A stretch of 64,000 nt of DNA, taken from NCBI RefSeq assembly GCF_041200025.1, contig NZ_CP165628.1, forward strand, positions 1,736,001 through 1,800,000, in the 5' to 3' direction. Source of the DNA: Rouxiella sp. WC2420 (GTDB taxonomy: Bacteria > Pseudomonadota > Gammaproteobacteria > Enterobacterales > Enterobacteriaceae). The notes beneath the pieces were generated by a model. The model was given only the letters and a program-made list of their open reading frames with translations. It made no database searches and had not been told where the DNA came from. A program made the translations under genes and the position numbers. This document shows, one piece after another, positions 30,661 through 61,768 of the stretch; the first letter of the stretch is position 1; each line of letters begins with the position of its first letter.

Positions 30661-30700
30661 TCAAGTGAGCTAATATTTGGTAAACTTGTTTTTAGCTAAG

Positions 30701-30742
30701 AGTTATTGGCTAAAAGTTATTAGCCAAAAGTTATTAGCCAAA
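30701..30742. repeat. 14-bp tandem repeat, 3 copies
   Basis: Three successive copies of AGTTATTRGCYAAA (first copy AGTTATTGGCTAAA, then two identical AGTTATTAGCCAAA), with a degenerate echo on either side. It lies between nhaA and mesD, just past the mesD stop. No function apparent; probably a slippage array. Confidence 0.8.
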
Positions 30743-30759
30743 TAGTACTGAACCGAAAA

Positions 30760-31791
30760 TTATTTAGCCGAAAGTTCCTTTCTAACAATGTGTGCGCCTA
30801 AACTTAAAGCATTTAGCTTGCCTCTTGCTACTCGGCGAGGTAAAGGGATCATGCCACAGTTGGTGCTTGGGTAAAGTTTGTCTGCATCTACAAACTGAAG
30901 TGCTTTTCGCAGCGTTTCGGCGACTTCCTCTGGTGTCTCAATGTTATTGGTTGCCACATCAATGGCACCAACCATGACTTTTTTCCCACGGATCAGTTCA
31001 ATAAGATCCATTGGAACATGAGAGTTTTGACACTCCAGCGAGATTATATCAATGCTGGATTTTTGCAGCTTAGGGAAAATTTCTTCATATTGTCGCCACT
31101 CTGTGCCCAGAGTCTTTTTCCAATCCGTATTGGCTTTAATGCCGTAGCCATAGCAAATATGCACAGCAGTTTCGCATTTAAGTCCTTCAACGGCTCTTTC
31201 TAAAGCGGCAATGCCCCAATCATTTACCTCATCAAAGAACACATTAAATGCAGGCTCATCAAATTGGATAATATCGACACCCGCAGCCTCTAATTCCCTG
31301 GCTTCTTCATTGAGGATTTTAGCGAATTCCCAAGCGAGTTTTTCGCGACTTTTGTAGTGATTATCATAAAGCGTATCAATCATAGTCATTGGACCTGGCA
31401 GAGCCCATTTAATAGGCTGCTTGGTTTGCTGACGTAAAAACTTGGCATCTTCAACAAAAACGGACTTTTGACGGCTCACTGCACCCACAACTGTCGGCAC
31501 ACTTGCATCATAGCGATTGCGAATTCTTACCGTCTCACGTTTCTCGAAATCAACACCGCTGAGGTGCTCAATAAACGTGGTGACAAAATGTTGGCGCGTT
31601 TGCTCGCCGTCGCTGACAATATCAATTCCTGCCTGTAATTGATCTTGCAGGCACAGACGCAGCGCATCTTGTTTGCCGTCAATTAATTCTTGATCCTGCA
31701 ATTTCCAAGGTGACCAAAGTGTCTCGGGTTGTGCAAGCCAGGAAGGTTTAGGCAAACTGCCCGCAGTCGAAGTGGGTAATAAAATTTTCAT
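30760..31791 (-). CDS. mesD: folate-independent methionine synthase MesD (MetE C-terminal-like core)
   Basis: A 343-aa single-barrel protein related to the C-terminal half of cobalamin-independent methionine synthase MetE, without the folate-binding N-terminal half. The zinc/thiolate ligands are present: His211 and Cys213 (VHICYG), Glu253 (SLECQNSH) and Cys312 (STNCGM). FDEPAF and the DGEQTRQHF block bind homocysteine. Pairing with a DUF1852 gene 27 bases upstream identifies it as MesD, a core methionine synthase that needs MesX and, in the characterised system, oxygen. The methyl donor is unknown. AAGGTC precedes the ATG. Confidence 0.85.
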   Translation of the reverse strand: MKILLPTSTAGSLPKPSWLAQPETLWSPWKLQDQELIDGKQDALRLCLQDQLQAGIDIVSDGEQTRQHFVTTFIEHLSGVDFEKRETVRIRNRYDASVPTVVGAVSRQKSVFVEDAKFLRQQTKQPIKWALPGPMTMIDTLYDNHYKSREKLAWEFAKILNEEARELEAAGVDIIQFDEPAFNVFFDEVNDWGIAALERAVEGLKCETAVHICYGYGIKANTDWKKTLGTEWRQYEEIFPKLQKSSIDIISLECQNSHVPMDLIELIRGKKVMVGAIDVATNNIETPEEVAETLRKALQFVDADKLYPSTNCGMIPLPRRVARGKLNALSLGAHIVRKELSAK

Positions 31792-39289: not shown

Positions 39290-39472
39290 ATGGATATTCA
39301 ATATAACAACGAACTGACTCCTGAAGTTTTAGCCAAGATGGGCAAGTCTCCGCTTGTTCTTGAACAACTGGCTGAGATTGCTGAGTTTAATGATGACGCG
39401 CGTGAGCTCATCGCTGGACAACAGGAATATTGCTGCCAGCACCCAGGTAATGAAGTAAGAGTAGTGTTGTAA
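39290..39472 (+). CDS. small protein upstream of PAAR toxin, unknown function
   Basis: A 60-aa acidic protein that I do not recognise: ELTPEVLAKMGKSPLVLEQLAEIAEFNDDARELIAGQ, predicted helical. It ends one base into the PAAR gene start (TAATG), so the two are translated as a unit. By position it could be a loading adaptor or chaperone for the PAAR effector; nothing in the sequence proves that. Confidence 0.6.
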   Translation: MDIQYNNELTPEVLAKMGKSPLVLEQLAEIAEFNDDARELIAGQQEYCCQHPGNEVRVVL

Positions 39473-41076
39473 TGGGAAATCGTTCTAATTGTTATGGACG
39501 AGGTACGGCACTGGAGGGGGACAAAACAACCACGGGTGCAGAATGCATCGCCTCAATCTCCAATGATATCGAGCATGGGCGAAGGGTTGTTCGCGTTGGT
39601 GATAAAACTACTCCATGCCCTAAATGTAGTGAGGTTGGAGAGATAATATCGGGTGAGCCACGCGATTCTAATATGGGTAAAATTGCAGCTGTAGATGGTT
39701 CTATCGTGCGGTGTGGTTGCCTATGTGGATCTAACCGAATTATTGCTCCTGCAGGGCAATGGATTGGAAGAGGCCCCGATCCTTCCATTGCAGCATGTGA
39801 AAAATTAGCAGCTGAATGTAAGGCAATCGTAGAAGCCGAAAAAATAAAACTGGCAGAAGAACGTGATCTTAATCGTGTATTTGCCAAGTCCTTCCTGCGG
39901 GGGGAGGGTTGTAACGATTCAGGGAAAGAGCCGGAGCCGCACAGCAATTTTGCTGAGATGTCATTTTATCAGGCAGCTATTACCCAAAAGCCTGTATCAG
40001 AGACTGACGTTCCACAACACGCCCAGACTGCCAAGAAAAAGAAACCCGCAGAAGATATTGCTCAGCCCAAAAAGCGAAGTGCCTTATATAAATGGTGGAA
40101 TGGTAATCATCAGGAAATAGAATATCGGAGGGCAACATCCGCTGCAGCAAATGCTAACAATGCTCCGATGTCGATTGAAGGTGCTAGCGTTCTTGGTTTG
40201 GTGGGGGGAAATGCCATTACATCTGGAACTTGGGCGGTAAAACTTGGGGAGATGGCAAACGGACTCGGAAGGATCGCAGCCAGCGGCCCCGGAGCACCAA
40301 TAGCAGTTGTAGTGGTAGGAATGATGCCCGGCAGGCTGAATGATGGTGAACAGGATTTCATTGATCGGATGCGACTTGAACAAATGAATGAAGCCCCAAG
40401 TCGTGTGCGGTATACGTGGGAGCAAGACGGCACAGGCAATCTGTTTCCTCGTGGCTGGCATACGCCGCCGGGTAAGGATATGGTACGGGTGCGAAAAATG
40501 GGGTGGGATAACAGCCTTGAGGCGTATACTTTCGCTATAGATGAAGATCCACATATCACCATTTTCTGGACGGCGGATAATTCAGGAGTGAGTGTTCACT
40601 CGAATACAGGCAATCAGAACCCGATAAAGATACCTAATCCTGTGATTGTTGATCCTTTACCATACAAGACCAACATTGAGGCGACAACCAGTCCGGCCCC
40701 GAAAGATAAAGGCTTTGCGGATTATATTCTTATCTTACCGATATCGAATATTCCGCCGATTTATATTTACATTAGTCAGGGACGTTCAGGTATCCCTGAT
40801 AAAGATCATGATTATCATCCAGCACCGGAAACAAATGAAATTGGTATTTCAGGTCTTAGGCAAGCTAAGAAAAAAACACCTAAACAAGGTGGTGGCGGAC
40901 TTAGAGAGCGCTGGGTTGATGCTAAAGGTAGGCGGATTTACGAATGGGATTCGCAGCACGGTGAACTTGAAGAATACAGGGCCAGCGATGGTGAGCATTT
41001 AGAATTTGTAGATTATAAAACAGGTGAGCAGTTAAAACCTGCGGTCAAGGGTCGAAATATTAAAAGGTATCTGTGA
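39472..41076 (+). CDS. PAAR-domain toxin with S-pyocin domain and colicin E3-type rRNase
   Basis: A 534-aa modular toxin. Residues 1-100: PAAR-like spike-tip domain (ALEGDKTTTGAECIAS, RVVRVGDKTTPCPKC, GKIAAVDGSIVRCGC), which lets the protein ride on a type VI secretion spike. Residues about 100-210: charged linker. About 220-440: S-type-pyocin-like translocation domain (ending HPAPETNEIG-like YHPAPETNEIGISG). Residues 455-534: colicin E3/cloacin DF13 ribonuclease domain, with YEWDSQHGELEEYRASDG. The E3 catalytic set is present as Asp493, His496, Glu500 and Arg528. It should cut 16S rRNA at the decoding site (A1493 in E. coli). Immunity gene follows. No type VI structural genes are in the window. 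Confidence 0.9.
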   Translation: MGNRSNCYGRGTALEGDKTTTGAECIASISNDIEHGRRVVRVGDKTTPCPKCSEVGEIISGEPRDSNMGKIAAVDGSIVRCGCLCGSNRIIAPAGQWIGRGPDPSIAACEKLAAECKAIVEAEKIKLAEERDLNRVFAKSFLRGEGCNDSGKEPEPHSNFAEMSFYQAAITQKPVSETDVPQHAQTAKKKKPAEDIAQPKKRSALYKWWNGNHQEIEYRRATSAAANANNAPMSIEGASVLGLVGGNAITSGTWAVKLGEMANGLGRIAASGPGAPIAVVVVGMMPGRLNDGEQDFIDRMRLEQMNEAPSRVRYTWEQDGTGNLFPRGWHTPPGKDMVRVRKMGWDNSLEAYTFAIDEDPHITIFWTADNSGVSVHSNTGNQNPIKIPNPVIVDPLPYKTNIEATTSPAPKDKGFADYILILPISNIPPIYIYISQGRSGIPDKDHDYHPAPETNEIGISGLRQAKKKTPKQGGGGLRERWVDAKGRRIYEWDSQHGELEEYRASDGEHLEFVDYKTGEQLKPAVKGRNIKRYL

Positions 41077-46813: not shown

Positions 46814-48394
46814 TTAGTGGTAATTTATAGTCGTGCGAGATGAGTCATTTATCAATGATAAGATTGGGTGCATACTCCCGTCTTTAAAATCGTAAACTAT
46901 CATTTCTGGGTGGTGCAAATCGAATGCTTGACCTATAAATACAGATGCAGCATTAGATGCACAAATTAAAACATGCATTTTTTTTACACCAAAGTTTGAT
47001 TTTAATGTATGGAAGTCGTAATTAAGCTTTGAAGAGAAAAGTACACCATCAGTAGGGTGTGGTATTGCGCCGTTATCGAATGAATCATTTTTTGGTTTAT
47101 ACGTAATTATTTTTGCACCAAGCTTTTCGCTCAAACTTTTTGCTGTCATCAGCATAGCATCAGGAAATGCAGTAAAAGCTATACATATTATAACTTCTTC
47201 ATTTATTTCCAGCGTTTCAAATCCTTCTCTATTATAAAATACTCCAGATGCAGTGGCAGAAGGCCACTTCCAGCAGGCTCCGTCTCGGTATCTCAGCATA
47301 GGAGTATATTGACTTTTGTTTCCAAGAAATGCTCCCAGTGCGACTAATGCAGGTGTTGGACCAAAAGCAAACAATGCTGCTCGGTGTCCAGAATCTCTTG
47401 TCTGCTGAATGATTTTATCTGCAGCCATTTTTATGCTAAGGGGCATAATATATTTATGAGATTCTGGGGCTTCCCGAGTAGAATCATTACTATCGTAAAT
47501 GCTATTGACTACACCACTCATTTTCAGATTAAGTGTAGAGAGGCATGCTGAAATTTCTTTTTTGTTCGGTGGCGATGCAACATTCGTGTTTATGGGCCAT
47601 AAAATCGAGTAAACCGGTATTGGTTGATACTTAAGGCCGTTAAGAAGTTCATCAGCATCGCTAATAAACCTACTTCTCATATTCGATAATATTTCGGCAG
47701 TGTAATCACAGGTAGCAACACGATCTATTAATCGGTGGTGTTTATCACACAACAAAAGTATATTACTCGGTTCATTTGAAAGCAAGTTTGATAAAACAGG
47801 AATGCCACGTTCACCATTCTCAGAAGAAGCAACATTATGAGCTAGGTAAGAGTAATTTCCTTCCTGTCCTGTCAACTCATCTATATTCAAATGCTCGCCA
47901 CATCCAATAAACATGCAGCGGCTATGACTAGCCATATTCACAGCTCGTCTAGTTTCAACTGTGAAATCTTTTCCTCTACCTTTTTCCCGACTCCCTTTTT
48001 CTGCGGCTACAAGGAACTCTTTTAACTCTATGAAATTTACTTCAGATGACTGCCCTCTAGTACGCAGGTATATAGCATGTATAGATTCGAGAGTTAGGAG
48101 ATCTTGAGATAATAAACTATTACCTTGAAGATATGAAAGTGTTAATTTTTTGTCGTAAGCAAATTTTCTTATAACTTCTATAAATTCGACGGCTGGTAGA
48201 TTTAATCTAAAACAAGATTTTACAACTTCCTTGTCACTTAAAGTAATAATAATATTTGAACATCCTTCATCACTCATTACATCAACACAATCCCATTTTA
48301 TTTCAGTTTCTATAAACGACGAGAAATCTGTAATTGATGATTCATCTTCAAGAGGAGGGTAGTTAGTCTGATTAAGCAACTCATTTTTATTCAT
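46814..48394 (-). CDS. cap5: CBASS effector, HNH-SAVED nuclease (Cap5-like) with N-terminal extension
   Basis: A 526-aa protein from the ATG at 48394 (GGAG 8 bases upstream). Residues about 150-230 form an HNH domain of the Cap5 type: SRCMFIGCGEHL (Cys160, Cys165), LAHNVASSENG (His186) and LLLCDKHHRLID. Residues about 290-526 form the SAVED cyclic-oligonucleotide sensor, ending with MHVLICASNAASVFIGQAFD and PEMIVYDF. On binding the CD-NTase product it should oligomerise and degrade DNA. Typical Cap5 is near 400 aa; the first 150 residues here are extra and unfamiliar. It faces away from the CD-NTase operon, with an IS remnant between. It ends 106 bases from island repeat B. Confidence 0.85.
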   Translation of the reverse strand: MNKNELLNQTNYPPLEDESSITDFSSFIETEIKWDCVDVMSDEGCSNIIITLSDKEVVKSCFRLNLPAVEFIEVIRKFAYDKKLTLSYLQGNSLLSQDLLTLESIHAIYLRTRGQSSEVNFIELKEFLVAAEKGSREKGRGKDFTVETRRAVNMASHSRCMFIGCGEHLNIDELTGQEGNYSYLAHNVASSENGERGIPVLSNLLSNEPSNILLLCDKHHRLIDRVATCDYTAEILSNMRSRFISDADELLNGLKYQPIPVYSILWPINTNVASPPNKKEISACLSTLNLKMSGVVNSIYDSNDSTREAPESHKYIMPLSIKMAADKIIQQTRDSGHRAALFAFGPTPALVALGAFLGNKSQYTPMLRYRDGACWKWPSATASGVFYNREGFETLEINEEVIICIAFTAFPDAMLMTAKSLSEKLGAKIITYKPKNDSFDNGAIPHPTDGVLFSSKLNYDFHTLKSNFGVKKMHVLICASNAASVFIGQAFDLHHPEMIVYDFKDGSMHPILSLINDSSRTTINYH

Positions 48395-48527
48395 TTTGAG
48401 ACTCCCGAGAAAGTTTGACTTGACTAAAATCAATGCACTTTACTTTTGGCGCACTTCTAAAATATAATCAATCTTGTAAAATATCATGTCATACCTTATA
48501 AAATCTCAACGATTTCATGTTTTGCTA

Positions 48528-50255: not shown

Positions 50256-51533
50256 ATGAGCTCTCAAGTATTAGAATTTACAGCACAAGATTCTTCACAA
50301 GTATATAGTTGGGAGCAGATGCTTCTCGAAGCTTCTAAAAAAATATCTTTAAGTCAATCACAATATGATTTAATTGAAAGTCGATACTCCCAATTACAAA
50401 AAGTTTTAGATAAAGCACAAGAGTTTTGTTTGTCCGGTGCTCATATATTTATCCAAGGATCAATTGGGCTTAAGACTACTGTTAAACCTGCCCCTGAAGC
50501 AAAGGGTGATATGGCAACTATAGATGCAGATGCCATCATATTATTACCTAATGCCTCGAACACAAGCTCGGAGGATGTGTTGCTTGCAATTGAGGCTTTA
50601 TTTAAAGCCGAATCAACTGTTAAGGCTGATCCAGAGCAACTGAGACGAGGTATCCGAATCGTTTATTCTGATGAAAACCCCGGTTTCCATATCGATATAA
50701 CACCTGCCATTAAAGCCTATGGCAATAATGAAGATGACGGATATGGGAAACTACTTGTTCCAGATAGGCAAGATGGTTGGAAAGCAAGTTCGCCGCGTTC
50801 TTATTCCAAATGGCTTGAGAGTGTTAGCACTGAAAAAATTGTAATGATCTCTGAATCAATAAGGACTATGGATAGTATTGTTAGCAATGAAGAATTTGCT
50901 AAATCCACAATGGACCCTATTCCGCAATATCAAGAATATTCAGATTCTCACCCTCTTGGCGCAACGATTAAACTATTGAAAAGACATCGTGATCGCTGGG
51001 CTATTCGCTCTTCATCTGAGCTTTATAGGCCAATTTCTGCGGTTATTACAACACTAGCAACCCAAGCTTATTATAATATTGCGTTACGATCTACTTCCAA
51101 ACCAATGAGACCGATCGATGTGATGTTCTCAATAGTATCGGATATGACTCAATATGTTAATTATGCCAATGATGAGCACCAAGTATTAAATCCATGTGAT
51201 AAAGGTGAAAACTTTGCTGAAAAATGGAATAGAAATAATGGTGAGGGTGATATGTATAGGTCGGCTTTTTATGAATGGCATGCTGATGCAATCACTGATA
51301 TAGCACTGGGTTTGAGCGATTGGGGAACTCAGCATAGATTTGAACAGGAAGTTAGTGATAAATTTGGTGTTCCACAATCTATGGTAAATGAGATATCAAA
51401 AGAATTTGGCAGGTCTTGGACACTACCGGGGAGGAGGACTGGCGAAACATTGAATAAAACGGTACTGAGTGCTTTCGGTATGTTATCAGGCTCTGGTCAA
51501 GCTAATGCAGGGACGGTAGAACGCCTTGGATAA
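50256..51533 (+). CDS. CD-NTase (cGAS/DncV-like nucleotidyltransferase)
   Basis: Signal-making enzyme of CBASS, 425 aa. The active site is visible: Gly68-Ser69 (FIQGSIGLKTTVKP), Asp90-x-Asp92 (IDADAII) and Asp147 (GFHIDITP). It should make a cyclic di- or trinucleotide upon infection, sensed by the SAVED domain of the effector. SAVED effectors usually pair with trinucleotide-making clades such as CdnD; the clade is inferred. The chain ends in ERLG, so a C-terminal glycine is available for conjugation by Cap2. AGGAG precedes the ATG. It overlaps cap2 by 8 bases. Confidence 0.88.
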   Translation: MSSQVLEFTAQDSSQVYSWEQMLLEASKKISLSQSQYDLIESRYSQLQKVLDKAQEFCLSGAHIFIQGSIGLKTTVKPAPEAKGDMATIDADAIILLPNASNTSSEDVLLAIEALFKAESTVKADPEQLRRGIRIVYSDENPGFHIDITPAIKAYGNNEDDGYGKLLVPDRQDGWKASSPRSYSKWLESVSTEKIVMISESIRTMDSIVSNEEFAKSTMDPIPQYQEYSDSHPLGATIKLLKRHRDRWAIRSSSELYRPISAVITTLATQAYYNIALRSTSKPMRPIDVMFSIVSDMTQYVNYANDEHQVLNPCDKGENFAEKWNRNNGEGDMYRSAFYEWHADAITDIALGLSDWGTQHRFEQEVSDKFGVPQSMVNEISKEFGRSWTLPGRRTGETLNKTVLSAFGMLSGSGQANAGTVERLG

Positions 51534-53283
51534 GACTAATAATATTACACCTGCCATTCAGGCAGGTGTAGAAAGGCTTAATGAAATATTTAGTGACTGC
51601 TATCTAATTGAAGTTAATACAATAAATAATAAGGAAGTAATGCGATTTGAGTTAAGCCTACCAGTTGATTATTTAGGGATAAAAAGGAAGTTGCAAATAG
51701 GTTTCAGTGAAAACTTCCCCAGTGTAGCATTAGCATTATCAATCATACCAAGTCCATGGTTAGAATGGCCTCATATCTTAGATGATTTCGTTTGTTTATT
51801 TGGAGGCGGAGATAAGGCTGTATATGGTGATCCTATTGAGGTTATAGATAACACATTCTATAGACTGGGTAAACTCATCTCACTAGTGTGCGAAAGTAAA
51901 AACTTCAGTCAAATTAAAAATGAGTTTGATAGTGAAGTAATTAGCTATTGGGCTATGCAAACTGCATTAAGCCAGCAAAAGTTAATACTGCTTAATAAGC
52001 CTAAAGTCTCAGCGCCATTATATACTTTATCTAAGGTTGGTACATTAGGTAGGGAAGAAATTTGGATTTCAGACAATGAAAAGAAAGTTTTAGAACATTA
52101 TCAATGGCAGGTTTCTCCATCCAAAAAGAAAATTGATGCTGGTAAGGGGGCTTTTTATTTGAAACTTACATCTACACCAAATGTAAAGTTACCAACTGCC
52201 TTTGGTTTAGTTGATTGGCTCTCAAGTCATGCTGATGGTAACGATATTAAAGCTCTTAAAGATTGGTTGAAAAATGATTCTAATTATCCATTAAGGTGGG
52301 TGATACTTGAAATTTTTAATTCAGAGCCTGTTAGCATAATTTCATTATTAATTAAAAGGAAAGGGGTTAGAGATAATCAGAAATTTAACTTTGGATTGAG
52401 AAAAGCGAAAAAAAATCCTCGGGTAAACCTTATTGATGTAAGGGATAAGTTACTAATAACTGATGCGTTTATTCTTGATAATGAAGTTATTTTTTCACGT
52501 TCCAAAGATCTTAAAGTTGAAGACAATACCAAAAACAAAGTTCTCCTGATAGGTGCAGGTTCACTTGGAAGCCATGTTGCATCACAACTAATACACTCAG
52601 GCATAAAAGATTTGACAATTGTTGACCCTGATTCACTAGATGATTCAAACTTAGGTAGACATATATTAACAATTGACGACTTAGGGGAAAATAAATCTAT
52701 AGCACTTAAAAAATATCTTAAGTCTTGCATACCAACTGCTCTAATAACAGCAATTCCTCAAACTTTTTATCAAGCACTTTTTTATAAAGACATCAATATT
52801 AGTTCATATGATTGTATTGTTTCAACTTCTGCTGACTGGCCAACTGAATATTTCATTTGGGAAATGAAATCAAAGATTAAAGATATAGCGTTTGTGCAAG
52901 CTTGGGTTGAACCCTTCGCTTTCGTTGGCCATGTTTTATGTAGTGGTAAAACGAAAACTGCCGATGCGAGACATCTATTTGATCGAAGCGGAAATTTCAG
53001 AAGGAAATTTACTCATTGGGAGAATAATGGATATCACAAATTACCTGCTTGTGGGGTAGGTTTCATTCCAGGAAGTTCATTGAGCATTCAACAGATTGCA
53101 GGCATGGTATCAAAATCCGTGATAGCTGTTTTGGATAAAAATGAAGGTTTGGGCTGTAATACATGGAACTCCTTTGTGACCGATAGCAGAAAAGTTACTA
53201 TGGCTGGCGGTCAGTATATAGGTCCTGAGATAGATGAAAACATTGAAAGCATGGTGATTAGAAATGAATGGTGTGACAAATAA
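51526..53283 (+). CDS. cap2: Cap2, E2-E1 ubiquitin-conjugation-like fusion
   Basis: A 585-aa fusion that primes the CD-NTase by attaching its C-terminus to a target. N-terminal E2-like domain with catalytic Cys90 in WPHILDDFVCLFGGG. A middle linker follows to about residue 330. C-terminal ThiF/E1 adenylation domain: VLLIGAGSLGSHVASQL, LTIVDPDSLDDSNLGRH, and the E1 cysteine in KLPACGVGF (Cys509). The start is probably TTG at 51526, within the end of the CD-NTase gene; no ATG gives a full E2 domain. Its end overlaps cap3 by 20 bases. Confidence 0.88.
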   Translation: MDKTNNITPAIQAGVERLNEIFSDCYLIEVNTINNKEVMRFELSLPVDYLGIKRKLQIGFSENFPSVALALSIIPSPWLEWPHILDDFVCLFGGGDKAVYGDPIEVIDNTFYRLGKLISLVCESKNFSQIKNEFDSEVISYWAMQTALSQQKLILLNKPKVSAPLYTLSKVGTLGREEIWISDNEKKVLEHYQWQVSPSKKKIDAGKGAFYLKLTSTPNVKLPTAFGLVDWLSSHADGNDIKALKDWLKNDSNYPLRWVILEIFNSEPVSIISLLIKRKGVRDNQKFNFGLRKAKKNPRVNLIDVRDKLLITDAFILDNEVIFSRSKDLKVEDNTKNKVLLIGAGSLGSHVASQLIHSGIKDLTIVDPDSLDDSNLGRHILTIDDLGENKSIALKKYLKSCIPTALITAIPQTFYQALFYKDINISSYDCIVSTSADWPTEYFIWEMKSKIKDIAFVQAWVEPFAFVGHVLCSGKTKTADARHLFDRSGNFRRKFTHWENNGYHKLPACGVGFIPGSSLSIQQIAGMVSKSVIAVLDKNEGLGCNTWNSFVTDSRKVTMAGGQYIGPEIDENIESMVIRNEWCDK

Positions 53284-53764
53284 TATCCCCATGCTTGCAT
53301 GGAGCTGGTATTGGAATGAGTATGATTTCGAATTACATGTCAGTAAAAACGCTTACGATGTGTTTAATGCGCATAGGCAATACAATAATAAAAATGAATG
53401 TGGGGGGCAGCTATTTATAGATATTTCATTCAACAACGGATTATGGCTATCTTCCGCAACGTTACCGCATCCATCTGATAAATCCTCAAAACATTGGGTT
53501 GAGTTAAACTCTGATAGATGTGAATTAGAGCAGAATCTAGCGAGGAAAAATGGTTTGGTTTTTGCAGGTTATTGGCATACTCACCCTCAAGAAATCCCTA
53601 TGCTGTCACATCAAGATAAAATTAGTATCGAGCGCTTCTATGTTATGAATAAGGAGGTTATAAGGTCTCCAATTTTTATTATAGTTGGAACTTCATTATG
53701 CCAAGATGGGATAAAGGCATGGGCCTATAAAAATGAATGTTATAGTGAAGGTTTAATAAGGTGA
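53264..53764 (+). CDS. cap3: Cap3, JAB/JAMM deconjugating peptidase
   Basis: A 166-aa JAMM metalloprotease that removes Cap2-made conjugates. The zinc motif is complete: Glu in NECGGQLF, then HTHPQEIPMLSHQD (H-x-H, seven residues, S-x-x-D). AIQ-like neighbours place it last in the exonuclease-CD-NTase-cap2-cap3 operon. The start at 53264 overlaps cap2 by 20 bases; a second ATG at 53291 lacks a ribosome site. Confidence 0.9.
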   Translation: MNGVTNNIPMLAWSWYWNEYDFELHVSKNAYDVFNAHRQYNNKNECGGQLFIDISFNNGLWLSSATLPHPSDKSSKHWVELNSDRCELEQNLARKNGLVFAGYWHTHPQEIPMLSHQDKISIERFYVMNKEVIRSPIFIIVGTSLCQDGIKAWAYKNECYSEGLIR

Positions 53765-53830
53765 TGTCCCTATGCTTATAATCTAATTAATTTTTTGTAA
53801 TCCTATGCCAATACCTAGATACTGAGTAAA

Positions 53831-53907
53831 GACTGAAGACTGAAGACTGAAGACTGAAGACTGAAGACTGAAGACTGAAGACTGAAGACTGAAGACTGAA
53901 GACTGAA
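53831..53907. repeat. heptanucleotide tandem repeat (GACTGAA)x11
   Basis: Eleven perfect consecutive copies of GACTGAA, 77 bases, in the 406-base gap between cap3 and the DUF2235 gene. The repeat preserves no reading frame across the gap and belongs to no ORF I can support. The rest of the gap is AT-rich with nothing else recognisable. Confidence 0.97.
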
Positions 53908-54170
53908 GCAGAATATTGAATTTGGTCAGCTTAACAGAGGTGGTATGCTCACCTCAGAACAATACAGGCTCTTATGAAAATTTCGAGTATAAGTCAGGAT
54001 GTTTAAATGTCAACTGAAGTATAAACTTTGATACTATATACAATGTATTTATTTAATAATAACTTTACAGGAGTCCTGTATAAGAGAGCGTAGTTATACT
54101 CGTCCTGAGAGGGTAATATAGTAAGTCTAAACCCTGTTTTTGCTGACTGTTCCAAAATTAATAATAGGAG

Positions 54171-55379
54171 TTAATCATCAATATACTCATACTTCTGGGG
54201 GAGGTTCATAGGTTTGTAGCCAGACTGTCCCATTCGTAAGCGAACTGAACTATGTATCAAGGCACCCTCTGGAATTAATCGAGGCTCACCTCTAGGTAAA
54301 TAAAATCCTAACCATGACCTGCGATTTTCCCACTCCTTCGCTGTCAGTTTCTTAGGTATCCATTCCAATGGTTTCCAGAATGAAGTTAATGAATCATGCA
54401 TTTTTGCGGTTGCATTAGGCTCGACATAGAAGTATTTACTACCTTTCCGGGGCTTACCAAATACAAGTCGATTTATATTTGCTTGATGAACAAGTAAGCC
54501 ACAATCACGCGCTTCTTGTATCATCCAGGCGAGAGGAAATTTTGACAGGCCACTTTCTGCTTCTGGATATCCTCCTCCAATATCTGCATGTACACCAGCA
54601 AACCAGACTTGTTTGATATTCTGTGCTACGTCACTCTCACTATTAAAAGATTTCTCTCTAAAGGGTTGTGGATCATTCCAATGATGTAAACGGAACATCC
54701 TGCGACGTTCATCAATAGCGATCGCTTGGCGAAAACACTTAACTATAGGATTTTTCTGGGTGTAAAGTAGGCTCTCAATACTAGGAATTAAGCCGTATTT
54801 TTTAGGTGCAAATACAGAGGATACTGTATCCCAGACTCCAATGAATTCGATCTGGACTTTACGGGTTCTAGTGACGCGGGCCAGATGCCAGGCATCAGCC
54901 AATGCAGAGGAAGATTGTTTTGGTTCACTTGAATTTTCAGCATATTGTGCTTCTGTAACGACATATGAGCTTGCCCGTTTATATGCAGCTAAGGCATATT
55001 CAGCAAGATTTAACTGGTCCTTGCTAAGAAGCCCTATTATATTCACAAATGCCGCCAGAACACGTACTGTATAAGCTCCTCTGCTAAAACCAAATAGCCA
55101 TATTTTATCCCCTTTAATATGGTTCTCACAAAGATAACGATAAGCATTAAGAATGTCATTATCCAGGCCAAAACCTGTGGCTAACTCAAACAAACCACGA
55201 ACTTTCTGTCTGAATCGCTGCCAGGAATTATGTAACCCAATAGTACCAATGCCTGGGTTGTAGTAAACAACTTGAGCATTATTTATACTCATAACACGGT
55301 AAAGTTTAAGAACATTTGACAGTTCTGCATTCACTTCATTACCGGTGCCATCACAACAAATAACGATATTTTTCCCCAA
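54171..55379 (-). CDS. DUF2235 alpha/beta-hydrolase (Tle1-like phospholipase fold)
   Basis: A 402-aa DUF2235 protein: NIVICCDGTGNEVNAELSNVLKLYR at the start, nucleophile elbow GFSRGAYTVR (Gly-x-Ser-x-Gly), QIEFIGVWDTVSSV with a likely acid, and GVHADIGGGYPE with the catalytic histidine, then PLAWMIQEA. The fold includes type VI lipase effectors of the Tle1 family, but no immunity or VgrG gene is next to it. It lies last in a minus-strand block after the Gabija-like genes and between two heptamer arrays, so it may be a cargo or defence gene. TTG start with AAGGAC 8 bases upstream. Confidence 0.8.
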   Translation of the reverse strand: MGKNIVICCDGTGNEVNAELSNVLKLYRVMSINNAQVVYYNPGIGTIGLHNSWQRFRQKVRGLFELATGFGLDNDILNAYRYLCENHIKGDKIWLFGFSRGAYTVRVLAAFVNIIGLLSKDQLNLAEYALAAYKRASSYVVTEAQYAENSSEPKQSSSALADAWHLARVTRTRKVQIEFIGVWDTVSSVFAPKKYGLIPSIESLLYTQKNPIVKCFRQAIAIDERRRMFRLHHWNDPQPFREKSFNSESDVAQNIKQVWFAGVHADIGGGYPEAESGLSKFPLAWMIQEARDCGLLVHQANINRLVFGKPRKGSKYFYVEPNATAKMHDSLTSFWKPLEWIPKKLTAKEWENRRSWLGFYLPRGEPRLIPEGALIHSSVRLRMGQSGYKPMNLPQKYEYIDD

Positions 55380-55534
55380 TGTTAGCGTCCTTTTTAAGGT
55401 TTTATACTAATCAAAATAATCCGGATAACTTTTTTCACAGTCTAATAAAAATTTTATTATTTTTATATTTAATAAATCACTACTGATAAATAAAATTACT
55501 TCAAGTTCAAGATAGATTATTCCTGTCAGAACGA

Positions 55535-57268
55535 TTATGGTGCTGGTTTAATCGTATCGATTCCGAACCAATTTTCAAGAGTATTAAGTGCTTCTGGTGA
55601 CAAGAACTGTGTGAACAAGATGGAAAGCCTCTTTTGTGGTCTTGAGCAGGCGACATAGAACAAATTGCGGTTACGTTCAAATGCTTCTTCTTTTGCAGGG
55701 GGAACTACTTTAGCGCTGGCAAGTTCCAGCATTTCACCGAAGTTATACTGATTCCAGCCACGTCCAACTACGATCAAAACATTCTCAAATTCAGCGCCTT
55801 TGACGCCATGTTGCGTTTCAAAAGGCGAGTAACCTACAAGATAATTGCGAAGCGCCTTCACTTCAGAATATGCAATATTTCGGAATTTTTTTAATTCTCC
55901 CAGCCTCCGTGGCAACTCAACGCCATCTGCCTCGTTGAACTCACGGAGCTCTCGTTCGCTCTTTTCGATGACATCAGGAAGTCTTGGTTTTCGCACTTTA
56001 TGTAAGTGATCGATCACCTCACCAACACTTCCTGTACTCTGGATAGCAAGCAACTGTGACATTGCATCGTGCCAACTGGCTTTGTCGGAATGACTCCGTA
56101 AGTGAGGTGTAGTACCTCCCAAGGATTCAAACATCATTCCATACTTACGAGTAGAGAAAGCATCACAGGCTGGTTCCAATTTATCAATAAAGAAAGCAAT
56201 GTGTTCCTGCTCCTTCTTTGTGAATGATTCGTTGTATCGAAAAGCTGCCGCCAAATTAGAATAGCCTTGTTGGTTAGCCAAAAGTTTGTGCGTCAACATG
56301 AGGATCTTCGTGTGACTGGGTGATAAGTCCCATCCATCAAGTTCTAGTGCGGTCTCAACACGTACCAGAGTGGCATGTCCATCAGTCAAAGGTAGATCAC
56401 CTCCCCAGTGAGGTCCTTTTTGACGTACTCCTTGCCAATTATTAGTATGAAAAACGCATATTTCACCTTTAGACTCAGGATCTTGAACGAATTGCTTCAG
56501 CTCTGGCCTCATGCGATTGAGTGCATCAACTATTTTTTTAACAGACCGGAAGTTAGCTTCTTTGCCGATCTCTATCACGCTTGGATGCTCTAGTTTCCCA
56601 CATCCTCCACCATAAATTTTCTGCCAATGATCCCCGAAGAAGCCAAACAAGGGTGCACTTGGTTGTCCTAGGAAATGTTCCTTGAGCGCTTCAACCCACT
56701 CGTAGTTCGTGTCCTGGTATTCATCAACCAAAATGATCGGAAATCTATCCGCGATCATGCGACGAAATTTTTCATGGGTCATGAGTGATATTGTTAGAGG
56801 CAGTACGTCGTCATGGTGAATGGATACGCTATGATCGCGTATTGACCGATGTCCGAGGCTGTATTCGATAACACGATTACCTATAGTTCCTCCAGCCTCC
56901 TTAATCTTTTCTTTCCAAACTGGCAGCGTTTCGATCAGTGTTCGGAGCGACTTCTGGAAGCCACAGATGAGCGACCAACAGAATGCGTGATTGGTTTCGC
57001 AGAAAACTAACGGACTCCGATCTGTACGCGATGCAATTTCGTCCTTTGCAACGTTTGTAAAGGTGATACATGCAATTTGCTGGCTATGTTTCAAAAAATT
57101 AGATTTATTATGTTCAATCAGGAACTTGAGTGCTTTTATCAGCGAATATGTTTTGCCAGCACCAGCACCGGCTTCTAAACGAAAGCTTTGTCCCTCAGCA
57201 AGACAGGTGTACATGGCCTCAAGAGCACGCTGGCTTGCAACCTCGGCAGGTGAATGGGTCTCAGACAT
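55535..57268 (-). CDS. UvrD/Rep-like helicase, Gabija-like (GajB-type)
   Basis: A 577-aa superfamily-1 helicase: Walker A EAGAGAGKTYS (residues about 32-42), CITFTNVAKDEIASR (motif Ia), PIILVDEYQDTNYEW (motif II, DEYQDT), FFGDHWQKIYG (motif III), HGVKGAEFENVLIV (motif V) and NLFYVACSRPQKRLSIL (motif VI). It begins 8 bases inside the end of the OLD-nuclease gene; GGAGGTGAGG before the ATG at 57268 decides the start. A class 2 OLD nuclease followed by a UvrD-like helicase is the Gabija layout. Both chains are longer than the best-known Gabija proteins (about 580 and 500 aa), so it is called Gabija-like. Confidence 0.85.
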   Translation of the reverse strand: MSETHSPAEVASQRALEAMYTCLAEGQSFRLEAGAGAGKTYSLIKALKFLIEHNKSNFLKHSQQIACITFTNVAKDEIASRTDRSPLVFCETNHAFCWSLICGFQKSLRTLIETLPVWKEKIKEAGGTIGNRVIEYSLGHRSIRDHSVSIHHDDVLPLTISLMTHEKFRRMIADRFPIILVDEYQDTNYEWVEALKEHFLGQPSAPLFGFFGDHWQKIYGGGCGKLEHPSVIEIGKEANFRSVKKIVDALNRMRPELKQFVQDPESKGEICVFHTNNWQGVRQKGPHWGGDLPLTDGHATLVRVETALELDGWDLSPSHTKILMLTHKLLANQQGYSNLAAAFRYNESFTKKEQEHIAFFIDKLEPACDAFSTRKYGMMFESLGGTTPHLRSHSDKASWHDAMSQLLAIQSTGSVGEVIDHLHKVRKPRLPDVIEKSERELREFNEADGVELPRRLGELKKFRNIAYSEVKALRNYLVGYSPFETQHGVKGAEFENVLIVVGRGWNQYNFGEMLELASAKVVPPAKEEAFERNRNLFYVACSRPQKRLSILFTQFLSPEALNTLENWFGIDTIKPAP

Positions 57269-59330
57269 GAGCCTCACCTCCATCCAACGCGTCGGCTATC
57301 GTTTTTACAGCCGATGCCAATTCTGGATCTGGTACTGCCACTTTCTCACGAGCCAGCCAGCGAACGCCGTCCATAATGTATTTCGGCGCCACCCATTCCA
57401 TTTCAGTAATTGCATACTTCAATGCGAATTCAGACTTTTTCCACTCATCCGCCTTGCAACGGGCTTCGATTTCTAGCTCCTGGGAATCCTCTTTGGTCAA
57501 GCCAAACAAATTTGGATTGGCAAGAATGAATGCATCTTCAAATGTCCGTCCGCAGGGACCATCTTCTTTCTCTACACATTGATAAGCAATACGATTTCCT
57601 TTGAGTACTTTGTCCGAGTCTTTCTTGGCAAGTAGTCCAGCTAAAGTGAAAGAAGCGTCCTCGGAGAACCATGCCTTCAAACAGGCGTTACTGGAAGATA
57701 TTCCGAGGTGTACTGCGCAAGCTTTTCCTCCAGGTTTCTCGACGGCATCTAGATCTGTGATGATTAAGCTGCGAAGTTCGAGGAACTGCAATAAGTCGAA
57801 GAACAGGTGTGCATAAGCACCTCCTATTTCCAGCACGGTGGTATATTGGCTGGACAACTTAGGACATTCCGGTTCATCGGCTTCTAATTTTGCAATGATG
57901 ACTGGAAGCAGCAAACGCTCGCTCAGTCCTTCGACGAGAACTGCTTTATCTGCGAAAAACAAGTCACTACGTGTCAACGTCATGTATTGATGAAGGAACT
58001 TCTTATCTTCGGGTGAAATGTGCTTCAGCCCTTTGCGCAGATCTTTTATTTTGGTTTCACGTATACCTTCTTGTGCACCTGTAACAGGAGCCCCGAGAAA
58101 GTAGCGAATATTCTCGAAGCCAGCTGCATTGGCAATATGCGATGAGTGAGTAGAAACGACGAATTGAACAGGCCAGGGCTTCTTATCCTCAGTGCCATCA
58201 ACCAACTGCTGTGCTATTTTAGCTAGCTGACGAATAAAAACTTCCTGCATTTGGGGATGCAGATGCGCTTCCGGTTCCTCAATGAAGATCAAGTGCACGC
58301 CTGGCTCTTTGGCTTCTGCACGAAATGCCTTATAAAAGCCTGCTAATTGCAAAAGGATAAATATCAGATTTCGCGCACCCAAGCCGTTATATGATTCAGG
58401 TAATGCTACGCCGCCATAACCCGCGTAACGAACTTTGGTAAAGTTAGAAAGTAATTTTCCAACATCCAGCAGGGTTTCTGTATGTAGCTCTTGCCCTCCC
58501 AGACCGGGGTATCCAAATGTTTTTAGCGCAGGGATCAAGCTTTTGAGCTGACCACCAAAGTTCGTATCAATCTGAGCTTGAATGTCTTGAACTGCGCCTT
58601 TCAAAGCCTCGGCAATTTGCTGATCTGCTGTATCAGCTGATGCAGAAGAGGCTGTTGCGAAAAGTCCTTCTACAGTTTTTGCCAACACGTCGGACTCTCG
58701 AGATGTTACATCATCAAGTCCTCGTTGAGCGTTGATAAATCCGGTTTTGACTAAGCCTCGTAATGCACTGGGTTGCAACTCACGGCGATTATCTGGATCG
58801 TTTGGGTCTTCGGCCCATATTTTTGTGCTGAAATTATTGGGTATTCGTTCCCGTAGTGTACGAAGGAATAATATACGGGTCTCATACGTTAGCGGCTGGT
58901 TAGGCTGATTTTCTAGAAACTGTGCAAGTTGACCATGTTTCAACTCATAACGAATTACAGCTAGTGCCTCATTGCATCCGGGATCCAAATCAATCACGAA
59001 AGGACTCAAGGGACCTAACTGAGGTTGAGCAGGGTCATACTGGAATTTCAATCGAAGCTCAATGGCTGGGATAAGCTCACGAATAATATTTTCTTCAGCC
59101 CCTTGGTTCAGTGCATGCAGCGCCTCACAGAAGCAGTCATAACAGGCACTTGAAAAGTCTTCGAGCTGAAAGGTTGCGCTCCCATCAGCCAAAAACCTGC
59201 GGATTATCTCCGACAGAGATGTTTTTCCACTATTATTTCGTCCAACGATAACAGTTGTCTGTTCTTCCAGCATTAGCTCTACATCTGCTAAAAGGCGAAA
59301 ATTCTTGATTTGAACCTGCTGAATACGCAT
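57261..59330 (-). CDS. OLD-family ATPase-TOPRIM endonuclease, Gabija-like (GajA-type)
   Basis: A 689-aa class 2 OLD nuclease. N-terminal ABC-type ATPase: IQQVQIKNFRLLADVEL, Walker A GRNNSGKTS (30-37), signature region SYNGLGARNLIFILLQL, Walker B LIFIEEPEAHLHPQMQ, and VVSTHSSHIAN. C-terminal TOPRIM nuclease: DKAVLVEGLSERLLLP (Glu), LIITDLDAVEKPG (Asp-x-Asp). It should nick or cut DNA when nucleotide levels fall, with the helicase encoded downstream. The ATG at 59330 is preceded by GAGGG; the frame extends to 59375. First gene of the block. Confidence 0.86.
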   Translation of the reverse strand: MRIQQVQIKNFRLLADVELMLEEQTTVIVGRNNSGKTSLSEIIRRFLADGSATFQLEDFSSACYDCFCEALHALNQGAEENIIRELIPAIELRLKFQYDPAQPQLGPLSPFVIDLDPGCNEALAVIRYELKHGQLAQFLENQPNQPLTYETRILFLRTLRERIPNNFSTKIWAEDPNDPDNRRELQPSALRGLVKTGFINAQRGLDDVTSRESDVLAKTVEGLFATASSASADTADQQIAEALKGAVQDIQAQIDTNFGGQLKSLIPALKTFGYPGLGGQELHTETLLDVGKLLSNFTKVRYAGYGGVALPESYNGLGARNLIFILLQLAGFYKAFRAEAKEPGVHLIFIEEPEAHLHPQMQEVFIRQLAKIAQQLVDGTEDKKPWPVQFVVSTHSSHIANAAGFENIRYFLGAPVTGAQEGIRETKIKDLRKGLKHISPEDKKFLHQYMTLTRSDLFFADKAVLVEGLSERLLLPVIIAKLEADEPECPKLSSQYTTVLEIGGAYAHLFFDLLQFLELRSLIITDLDAVEKPGGKACAVHLGISSSNACLKAWFSEDASFTLAGLLAKKDSDKVLKGNRIAYQCVEKEDGPCGRTFEDAFILANPNLFGLTKEDSQELEIEARCKADEWKKSEFALKYAITEMEWVAPKYIMDGVRWLAREKVAVPDPELASAVKTIADALDGGEAHV

Positions 59331-59427
59331 GAGTCCCTCAGTATCGTCCATCTTTTTTGATTGTATTTTATACACAAGATTTAAAAATAGTCATAATTTA
59401 ATGACCTTGCTTATGTTGCTAGCTGTA

Positions 59428-59504
59428 CCCCAAACCCCAAACCCCAAACCCCAAACCCCAAACCCCAAACCCCAAACCCCAAACCCCAAACCCCAAACCC
59501 CAAA
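59428..59504. repeat. heptanucleotide tandem repeat (CCCCAAA)x11
   Basis: Eleven perfect copies of CCCCAAA, 77 bases, followed by an extra CCCC. On the minus strand it is TTTGGGG repeats, able in principle to form a G-quadruplex, about 100-170 bases upstream of the OLD-nuclease start. It has the same unit length and copy number as the GACTGAA array at 53831-53907 on the other side of the block. Confidence 0.97.
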
Positions 59505-59625
59505 CCCCTTTCACCGCTGCGAACCAAGGGGCGCTACGCCCGGCTATGTAGGTCATATCTTTTCCTTCCGTGTGCTTTTCGTTCCCGTATCTGCTTCCGG
59601 CTAATCGTTTCCCTACACAACCCGT

Positions 59626-59665
59626 CCCGCAAGGGTAAATAGCACGCATTCTGCGCCCTTGCGGG
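59626..59665. promoter_or_regulatory. inverted repeat CCCGCAAGGG upstream of ardC-like gene
   Basis: CCCGCAAGGG (59626-59635) and its exact reverse complement CCCTTGCGGG (59656-59665), with a 20-base spacer, 75 bases before the ATG at 59740. It may be an operator or a hairpin in the leader of the antirestriction gene. Confidence 0.5.
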
Positions 59666-59739
59666 CCGGAACGATGTCGGGAAAGCGAACCGTCAGGCGA
59701 TACGAAAACGAAAATCACACCACTGACGGAGAAAAAATC

Positions 59740-60684
59740 ATGACTATTTCCCTGCATACCCAGGCTAGCGCCCCTAACACCGCAGCGGCGACCAGCGTAT
59801 CCCCGCTGGACCCGTCAGGCTTCTCAAAAACGAAATTTTCCAAAACTAAAACTGATATTTATCAGACCGTCACTGACAGCATCATTGCGGCACTGGAAAC
59901 TGGTGTTAAACCCTGGGCGTGTCCGTTGCAGCCTACCCCCGGTATGCCTGGTTTACCGTCCAATTACGCAACTGGCATGGCATACAGTGGGATGAATATC
60001 ATGTTGTTGTGGATCATTGCGTCAGAACAGGGATTCAATGATTCGCGGTGGATGACCTACAAACAGGCAAAAGAGGAAGGCGGTCAGGTACGTAAGGGAG
60101 AACACGGGACTACCGCCATTTTCTATACCACCCTGGAAAAGGAAAATGACGACGGAGAAACTGACTATATCCCGATACTGAAGACGTTCACCGTGTTTAA
60201 TGTTGAGCAAATTGATGGGTTGCCTGTGAGTGACGAAGCAGTTTTCCCGGCAGAGACCTTTGAGCCGATACCGCATGCGGAAGCGCTTTTCCGTAACAGT
60301 GGTGCAACCATCATTGAGAAGGGACAGAATGCCTTTTTCGCACCATCAACCGACGAAATCCATTTACCGGACCGTCGTCTTTTTAGCGATGCCGCCAATT
60401 TCTACGCTACGGGCCTGCATGAGCTGATTCACTGGAGCGGGGGAAAAAGTCGCCTAAATCATGAAATGAAAGGTAAGTTTGGCAGTGAGGGGTATGCGTT
60501 TGAAGAGTTGATCGCCGAGCTGGGAAGCGCGTTCCTGAGGTCGGATCTGGGGATCGTTGGAGAGGTGCAGCATGAAAGCTATATCTCTTCCTGGCTGAAA
60601 GCACTGAAGAACGACAAACGCTATATTTTCAAGGCCGCAAGCGCGGCATCGAAAGCACATCGTTATTTGATGGATAAAATTTGA
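59740..60684 (+). CDS. ArdC-like antirestriction protein (ssDNA-binding, zincin metallopeptidase)
   Basis: A 314-aa protein of the ArdC/TraC-primase N-terminal type. After about 37 variable residues comes the ssDNA-binding domain (DIYQTVTDSIIAALETGVKPWACP, LPSNYATGMAYSGMNIMLL, SRWMTYKQAKEEGGQVRKGEHGTTAIFY). The metallopeptidase motif HELIH (His227-Glu228-x-x-His231) is followed by a downstream glutamate region (EELIAELGSAFL). Such proteins ride on plasmids and ICEs and protect entering DNA from restriction. GGAG precedes the ATG. Likely a leftover or cargo gene of a conjugative element. Confidence 0.88.
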   Translation: MTISLHTQASAPNTAAATSVSPLDPSGFSKTKFSKTKTDIYQTVTDSIIAALETGVKPWACPLQPTPGMPGLPSNYATGMAYSGMNIMLLWIIASEQGFNDSRWMTYKQAKEEGGQVRKGEHGTTAIFYTTLEKENDDGETDYIPILKTFTVFNVEQIDGLPVSDEAVFPAETFEPIPHAEALFRNSGATIIEKGQNAFFAPSTDEIHLPDRRLFSDAANFYATGLHELIHWSGGKSRLNHEMKGKFGSEGYAFEELIAELGSAFLRSDLGIVGEVQHESYISSWLKALKNDKRYIFKAASAASKAHRYLMDKI

Positions 60685-60988
60685 GCCGCAAGGTCTCAAG
60701 ACCGCAAAGGAGTGTGGCTTTGCGTGCTGGGATAGGCTCAACCGGTAACGCTGTAGAGGTATGAGTGAGGCGGAGCGGAGTCGGAACGAGCACTGAACAG
60801 TCATAGTTCTACAGCGGAATAGAGAATTCTATGCTTTGGTTATGGTGTCTGGCATTAGAACTTCTTTAAAAATCTGAGAGTTGAAGCTCTTAAGTTATGT
60901 TGATCGGACGTTTGACAATAAGATATTCTGGTGTTTCTTCCCCCCTTGGCTCCGCACTTCCAAAAGAAGACCATATAGAGGAATTAGT
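60685..60988. other. 304-base intergenic region before hamA
   Basis: No gene. A TTGACA at 60912-60917 could be a -35 box for the Hachiman operon, but the -10 is poor. The hamA frame is open back to 60881 without a better start. Confidence 0.4.
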
Positions 60989-61768
60989 ATGGCAAATTTC
61001 GAGGACTGGTGTGATTCGACAGAACGTAATATCAGCGGTCATTATTTGCAGTCAATTACGGCCAGGGATGCCGAGCTTATGTTCGGCGTTCAGGCTATGG
61101 CCGCGATAATACCTGAACACTATGCATCGCCACGAAATATCGCTAACGCATTTGAAGCTCTAGGTAAGCCAGGGCTAGCGGCATACATTGCTGGAAAATT
61201 GCCTGAAACGAAACAGATTCGTTCCGGTGATTTGGGTGAGATATTTGCAACTGAATGGATAAATGCACGTAGCAACGGCTATACAACGCCTATAAAAAGA
61301 TTGCGCTGGAAAGATCATCGCAATATGTCGATGCGTGGTGAAGACGTCATTGGTGTTTACATAGATCCGTCTTCTCAACAACTTTTTTTCCTTAAAACCG
61401 AAGCGAAAAGTCGCGCCAAAATGACAGGAGAAGTGGTTTCTGAAGCCCGCAATAACTTGAATAAAGAACAAGGGCTGCCATCTTCACATGCCTTAATGTT
61501 CATAGCAGATCGCCTGAATGAACAGGGTGAGGAGCTTTTGGCTAAAGCGATCTTAAATGCAACTCTTCGGCAAGGAATTGTTCCTGGATGCGTCCGGCAT
61601 CTTATTTTCCTCTTATCCGGCAATTCTTCAGAAGCTATGCTGACCACTTCAATTGAAAAGTATACAGATCAGAACAATCAGTGGGGTGTTTGTCTAAGAA
61701 TTGCCCGCCATGGTGAGTTTATTGCTGCAACTTTCGAAAAGGTAATTAGTGATGCCAGCAACAGCTGA
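60989..61768 (+). CDS. hamA: HamA nuclease of the Hachiman system (DUF1837)
   Basis: A 259-aa HamA-like effector. The PD-(D/E)xK-type nuclease residues can be placed: GDLGE (Glu84), RGEDVIGV (Asp119) and TEAKSR (Glu138-x-Lys140), preceded by an N-terminal helical part and followed by SEARNNL. HamA is held inactive by the HamB helicase and degrades DNA when HamB meets unusual DNA ends. GAGGAATTAGT precedes the ATG. Overlap of 17 bases with the helicase gene shows tight coupling. The identification rests on the motif pattern plus the helicase partner. Confidence 0.78.
   Translation: MANFEDWCDSTERNISGHYLQSITARDAELMFGVQAMAAIIPEHYASPRNIANAFEALGKPGLAAYIAGKLPETKQIRSGDLGEIFATEWINARSNGYTTPIKRLRWKDHRNMSMRGEDVIGVYIDPSSQQLFFLKTEAKSRAKMTGEVVSEARNNLNKEQGLPSSHALMFIADRLNEQGEELLAKAILNATLRQGIVPGCVRHLIFLLSGNSSEAMLTTSIEKYTDQNNQWGVCLRIARHGEFIAATFEKVISDASNS

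Follow-up and report, generated by a model that had tools for sequence, protein, structure and literature searches.

Two heptamer arrays around a Gabija-like block

We examined a 64,000-nucleotide stretch of the Rouxiella sp. WC2420 genome (NZ_CP165628.1, positions 1,736,001 to 1,800,000; hereafter the window), in which two perfect heptamer arrays lie on either side of a three-gene block on the minus strand. The block comprises a DUF2235 gene (54171..55379; Pfam T6SS_Tle1-like_cat, PF09994, with no PADLOC match), a GajB-like UvrD helicase gene (55535..57283; PADLOC GajB, 5.9e-263) and a GajA-like gene (57261..59375; PADLOC GajA, 4.1e-290, with the profile matching from residue 16), whose likelier start is the ATG at 59330. 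To its left, on the plus strand, PADLOC and Pfam identify the CD-NTase (50256-51533), E1/E2 Cap2 (51526-53283) and JAB Cap3 (53264-53764) genes of a cyclic-oligonucleotide-based antiphage signalling system (CBASS), a set that also includes an exonuclease gene; further left are a PtuB-like gene and a SAVED-HNH effector gene. To its right lies ardC (59740..60684, plus strand; Pfam ArdcN and MPTase-PolyVal), preceded by a conserved upstream region (59509..59739, plus strand) that was recognised by its matches in the family, its strong single-strand fold and a consensus hairpin.

Array 1 (53829..53908) consists of 11.4 perfect copies of AAGACTG, equivalent to GACTGAA, over 80 bp, and array 2 (59427..59508) of 11.7 perfect copies of CCCCAAA (GGGGTTT on the minus strand) over 82 bp, a tract for which Tandem Repeats Finder reports the unit ACCCCAA. 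The program scored them at 160 and 164, respectively, and the next-best repeat in the window at 76. The initial annotation had described two arrays of different sequence, each of eleven copies and 77 bases; the difference in sequence and the eleven whole, perfect units were confirmed, and only the total lengths needed correction. It had also placed the arrays precisely at the borders of the block, which is near the mark for array 2, at 51 bp from the start of the longest gajA frame (59375) or 96 bp from the likelier ATG. It fits array 1 less closely, which is 64 bp from the Cap3/JAB stop (53764) and 262 bp from the DUF2235 stop (54171). Array 1 sits in the gap between the convergent Cap3 and DUF2235 genes and array 2 between the divergent gajA and ardC (start 59740), with about 5.5 kb separating the two.

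Their perfect head-to-tail short units place both arrays among the variable-number tandem repeats (VNTRs), or long-unit simple sequence repeats. An evenly spaced 800-kb sample of the same genome contained six arrays with at least three copies and periods up to 12; a single heptamer run reached three copies (3.1), and none was longer. Three base shuffles of this sample produced one array in total, a pentamer. Both arrays are far beyond chance, and for this genome it is exceptional to find two long ones at a distance of 5.5 kb. The claim that heptamer arrays are unusual in enterobacteria therefore holds for their rarity in this genome, but heptamers are the most abundant, and over-represented, long-unit repeats in most bacterial genomes according to the excerpts of PMC4692102 and PMC4679880.

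Three-unit patterns of GACTGAA and of CCCCAAA each occur at one place in this genome, which rules out a dispersed heptamer family of the GGGNATC type. Those Xanthomonas and Nostoc repeats are likewise heptameric and intergenic and, as far as array 2 is concerned, rich in G-runs, but the excerpts of PMC4692102 describe them as scattered over about 180 sites in each Xanthomonas genome. The heptamers are not unique to this locus, since three CCCCAAA units in tandem were found in 4 of 149 family genomes, our own included (the other three with flanks unlike the ardC region), and the backwards-read control for GACTGAA in three; the GACTGAA pattern itself was found in one of the 149, our own. A 28-copy CCCCAAA array was seen in a genome of another genus (G022; locus L030, 1499-1694). 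Its site does not resemble the ardC region, and a terminator-like hairpin precedes it by about 40 nt; the same genome carries a run of the reversed GACTGAA unit. Seven perfect CCCCAAA copies also occur on a Kosakonia radicincitans plasmid (NZ_CP040393.1; locus L156, 755-803), with another GC-rich hairpin close by and an upstream region of the ardC type about 1.5 kb away.

Arrays at the left edge of the ardC region in relatives

The conserved region upstream of ardC, read from TTTCACC at 59509, was matched in 46 of 392 family genomes at an E-value of 1e-3 (40 at 1e-20), in 187 of 5426 Escherichia coli genomes and in 434 plasmid records, the plasmid matches being mostly at 60-80% identity. For the family, arrays were sought at the best loci of 30 of the 46 matching genomes; G002 and G003 were seen separately, and 14 genomes stayed outside the count. 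One locus had no alignable edge (L094) and another only 56 bases to the left of it (L092). Altogether 52 loci were examined at this edge, the E. coli loci among them not being a random sample. Arrays with at least three copies lay within 60 bp of the edge in eight of the 52, compared with three arrays in 192,590 bp elsewhere. These eight are our own locus, G079 (CAAAACC, 8.7 copies), G005 (the hexamers AAACTC, 29.7 copies, and CAAACC, 7.3 copies), G172 and four E. coli strains, the last five all with CCCCAAA units. Among the 30 family loci, a set with less bias, four, again counting our own, carry edge arrays of different units, and 25 of the 29 with an alignable edge carry none. Flanks and units together indicate about four independent origins of arrays at this edge, as three of the E. 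coli loci represent one haplotype, which the fourth and G172 resemble.

The copy number at this edge varies between identical flanks. The E. coli strains NRZ14408, 2018-06-4CC and YF-1 have 7, 12 and 20 units, respectively, between flanks of 407 and 400 nt that are the same in all three, as expected of a VNTR. The comparison of copy numbers among strains that the initial annotation had called for thus gave variation at the array-2 edge; for array 1 it amounts to presence or absence against one relative, Cedecea davisae. Given that CCCCAAA tracts at the array-2 edge of relatives span 2.6 to 20 units, the count of eleven common to our two arrays looks like a coincidence, which is how it is best read. 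Short perfect units of 6-7 bp with many alleles are also typical of the VNTR loci used for typing E. coli O157 (MLVA loci), and the excerpts of PMC3321953 report high diversity at such loci. Our arrays differ from these in their place, at the edge of the ardC region and at the tip of an insertion sequence (IS), and the likeness drawn here is one of short perfect units and many alleles.

Two genomes come close to a before-and-after pair. G092 has AAAACTCAAACCCA at the edge where G005 has its two hexamer arrays, and by blastn their left flanks are 96.7% identical across 1301 nt and their right flanks 90.3% identical across 1198 nt (the ungapped identities, 0.48 and 0.38, were spoiled by indels, and the blastn figures were used instead). 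The last 14 bases of 40 unexpanded loci contain 80% A+C, compared with 49% in nearby sequence, and unexpanded edges often hold about two imperfect units, as in AAACCCCAAACCCA. Literature searches, judged by their search results alone, returned no report of arrays at the edge of the ardC region.

A related island and the proposed origin by slippage

Array 1 abuts the decayed left end of an IS3-family insertion sequence (53904..53980, plus strand), which matches six copies in the same genome at 82-86%. The IS tip, TGAAG, overlaps the last unit of the array, so that this unit reads GAC from the flank followed by TGAA from the IS; in the six other copies the common sequence starts TGAAGTGG, after differing flanks. 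Most of the E. coli and plasmid matches listed for the IS end are annotated as IS3 family or IS911. The likely seed of array 1 would be AAGACTGAAG, with two AAG triplets at a spacing of seven bases. Other carriers of the left flank of array 1 (52300-53828) were sought in the 392 family genomes, where three short matches of 28-47 nt were found beyond our own; a search of the array-1 gap against E. coli and plasmids gave IS-end matches only, among the best 10 or 15 of thousands. Nothing in the window reached Rfam gathering scores, and a structured RNA at the IS remnant was rejected on that ground; two sub-threshold matches fell at 53500-54300.

Cap2 peptide patterns were scanned over 84,980 species genomes, a method that detects close relatives only, and yielded one locus, in C. 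davisae DSM 4568, where CBASS, DUF2235, GajB, GajA and ardC follow one another in the order seen in the window. Array 1 is missing there: the site reads AACGATGAAGTGAAATACTGAA, about one unit, and a longer remnant of the IS is retained. The site of array 2 reads ACCCCAAACCCCAAACCC, 18 bp or 2.6 copies. The defence block therefore does not need long arrays. The best C. davisae match to a core stretch near the window's island (80% identity) lies about 0.9 Mb from the C. davisae island, which suggests, from one match whose orthology is not proved, that the island occupies a different chromosomal site in that species. That the arrays were gained in the window lineage rather than lost in C. davisae would be the simpler reading, itself unproved. 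An earlier proposal that the arrays are marks of an integration mechanism does not survive this comparison, as the block has such short forms at both sites and the two seeds differ. An attachment site or a target-site duplication is likewise at odds with different units at the two borders, and a tRNA-associated border was dropped because no tRNA gene was found in the window.

We consider it likely that the arrays are two independent, hypervariable VNTRs, which arose by slippage on short seeds local to the borders of mobile DNA. Their separate seeds, and a C. davisae block without long arrays, argue that they are not a matched pair. For array 1, the tip of an old IS3-family insertion joined to its flank would have created the seed, of which slippage would then have copied the seven-base step. 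The contact with the IS tip and the absence from C. davisae are observed; we infer the seed and the direction of the change. For array 2, the A/C-rich tract at the left edge of the ardC region would have been expanded several times; here the short and long forms and the three copy-number alleles are observed, and slippage is the process that presumably links them. Unit length would follow the seed, CCCCAAACCC giving seven and AAACTCAAACCC giving six. Mismatch repair corrects small loops but is not known to correct loops of seven bases, which would help long units to survive. Polymerase slippage was proposed as the cause of long-unit repeats by Mrazek and co-workers, as told in the excerpts of PMC4692102 and PMC4679880.

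The arrays are ordinary in kind, and the worthwhile finding is the recurrent site of their birth at the ardC edge. Bacteria commonly carry long-unit repeats, the birth of which is seldom caught; here one fixed site presents a series from a bare A/C tract through a two-unit seed to long arrays, with several units and two unit lengths. How such a repeat starts, and why its period is so frequently seven, becomes testable in a small construct. The case is also a warning that paired arrays at the borders of defence genes should not readily be taken for marks of integration.

Several points weigh against an origin by slippage. The process is deduced from its products and was itself unobserved here, and slippage alone leaves unexplained why two long arrays should lie within 6 kb when the 800-kb sample held none. 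The 60-bp zone was chosen after the arrays had been seen, and the four E. coli loci with arrays had been retrieved on the strength of alignments that either extended into the array or began nearby. Fourteen array-free tails among the 52 listed have an A+C fraction of 0.64 or lower and are not A/C-rich. The seed of array 1 was deduced from sequence by comparison with one relative, in which the array could instead have been lost.

Module junctions, alternative readings and the hairpin region

Comparison of the loci points to the array-2 edge as a place where modules have been joined anew, a view that rests on the groups of left flanks, a step in divergence from C. davisae and a reversed polarity towards G001. 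By blastn, the left flanks of 47 loci sort into 24 groups (L094 and L092, which had been dropped, and L012, L143 and L144 were left out of this grouping). Of the left-hand genes, represented by the longest frame at 28 of the 29 non-own family loci, a third are recognisably defence genes, with a PADLOC family match (1e-25) in 9 of 28. The E. coli loci have restriction, ABC-three-component, helicase, and HNH or nuclease genes in this position, and others among them have thymidylate synthase or LysR genes. The synonymous divergence (dS) from C. davisae is 0.31 for CD-NTase, 0.33 for Cap2 and 0.41 for Cap3, then 0.18 for DUF2235, 0.15 for GajB and 0.15 for the C-terminal part of GajA (474 codons, up to where locus L149 ends), and 1.07 for ArdC. 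Successive 250-bp bins across array 2 show an identity to C. davisae of 96.8%, then 86.3% and then 79.2%. The polarity at this edge is the opposite when G001 is compared, with 77-81% identity in gajA and 91% in the ardC region. The step from Cap3 to DUF2235 falls across the array-1 gap, its exact place unfixed within about 400 bp, and non-coding identity to C. davisae is low on both sides of the array. Composition does not explain this step, as the G+C content at third codon positions is similar in DUF2235 (0.32) and Cap3 (0.34). The SAVED-HNH effector gene (46814-48433) also looks mosaic against C. davisae, with about 95% identity over 47251-48000 and 80-84% beyond 48000, and there is no repeat array at that step.

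These patterns speak for the earlier idea that the arrays are recombination points for swapping defence modules, with exchange occurring inside the repeats. It predicts what is seen in part: three levels of divergence with steps at the array-2 edge and the array-1 gap, the latter not a matter of composition, varied left flanks with defence genes among them, and a reversed step in G001. The array-2 edge is indeed a module junction, where dS rises from 0.15 in the GajA part to 1.07 in ArdC. But most family loci with this edge have no array, two that do (L071, L074) have no PADLOC match in the adjacent longest frame and other relatives have a LysR gene there, the step near 48000 has no array, that at array 1 is not placeable within its gap, and arrays 1 and 2, differing in sequence, cannot recombine together. 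Exchange inside the repeats is therefore unlikely; the modules were probably joined through homologous recombination inside the region of about 230 bp that the loci share. As array-free edges are the rule and the SAVED-HNH step lacks an array, we conclude that this region and not the array supports recombination, and that arrays lie at recombination edges without being needed for them.

The initial annotation had further suggested slippage-prone switches for the flanking genes. In such a contingency locus, array length would tune the expression of gajA or ardC, possibly through a G-quadruplex in the G-rich strand of array 2, which is the gajA coding strand. The place of array 2 between divergent genes suits this, eleven copies of GGGGTTT have the runs that a quadruplex needs, and for the related heptamers GGGGA(C/T)T the excerpts of PMC4692102 report quadruplex formation in vitro. 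However, a consensus scan of the gajA strand found a single promoter-like site. The distance from array 2 down to this site is about 32 bp, which puts the array upstream of the predicted -35 site and not between the hexamers; it also lies outside any recognised gene, although two mechanical frames cross it. Array 1 has no G-runs and sits between convergent genes, and the array-bearing relatives have different left-hand genes. A switch in the classical form finds no support in these positions, and tuning in general seems quite improbable to us, though array 2 may have a milder effect on expression. That the copy numbers or the arrays are assembly artefacts is hardly credible: copy number in perfect repeats can be misassembled, and the contigs of G055 and G172 end within such an array, but our tracts are only 80 and 82 bp in a genome of two contigs, and same-edge arrays occur in complete E. 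coli genomes. Slippage on local seeds remains our preferred origin for both arrays.

The proneness of the ardC edge to expansion may come from its A/C-rich seed and perhaps from stalling of DNA synthesis at the adjacent hairpin. The 249 nt adjoining array 2 fold strongly as single-stranded DNA (z of -5.1 for the plus and -6.9 for the minus strand). The consensus hairpin, drawn from 42 sequences, has 46 pairs, and six of these pairs show two-sided changes, a modest covariation owing to the high conservation of the region. As a tentative conjecture that we regard as doubtful, the left edge of the hairpin may be a hot spot where repeats of 6-7 bp are born during conjugative transfer. Complementary synthesis on the incoming single strand would stall at the hairpin foot, and the nascent A/C-rich end would slip back and be recopied. 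If true, arrays at the hairpin edge would record conjugative transfer.

By its shape, an extended single-strand hairpin upstream of an anti-restriction gene, the region could be a single-stranded promoter like the Frpo/ssi elements of conjugative leading regions described in the excerpts of PMC11541004. It is not Frpo by sequence, however, as the F plasmid stretch holding ssb gave no significant match (best E-value 0.054 over 21 nt), nor a CUP element of IncN plasmids, as there was no match at an E-value of 1 or better in 50,000 of the 50,969 bases of R46. The 434 plasmid records hold 783 places like window 59505-59800, so many records carry two, and locus L143 has two such places upstream of different leading-region genes. 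Places of this kind may form a repeated promoter family, distinct by sequence from the R46 CUP and the F Frpo.

The ardC end of the transfer region in the plasmid pMET1 and in related integrative conjugative elements is also alike, as described in the excerpts of PMC2262945 and PMC4891358. A 41,723-bp Klebsiella pneumoniae record, the length given for pMET1, matches the region where that account puts the start of ardC. Of the 11 E. coli loci retrieved, 7 have mobC next after ardC. The window differs in having a HamA (Hachiman) gene (60881-61768) directly after ardC, with no mobC identified beside it. Its ardC is thus flanked by two defence systems, and no transfer genes were identified beside it.

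Elsewhere in the window, the protein encoded at 39472-41076 has PAAR, S-type pyocin and cytotoxic domains, a content that points to an antibacterial toxin, either bacteriocin-like or secreted. Just downstream of a Na+/H+ antiporter gene, at 30688-30776, there is a 14-bp direct repeat, GTTATTAGCTAAAA, in about 4-6 imperfect copies.

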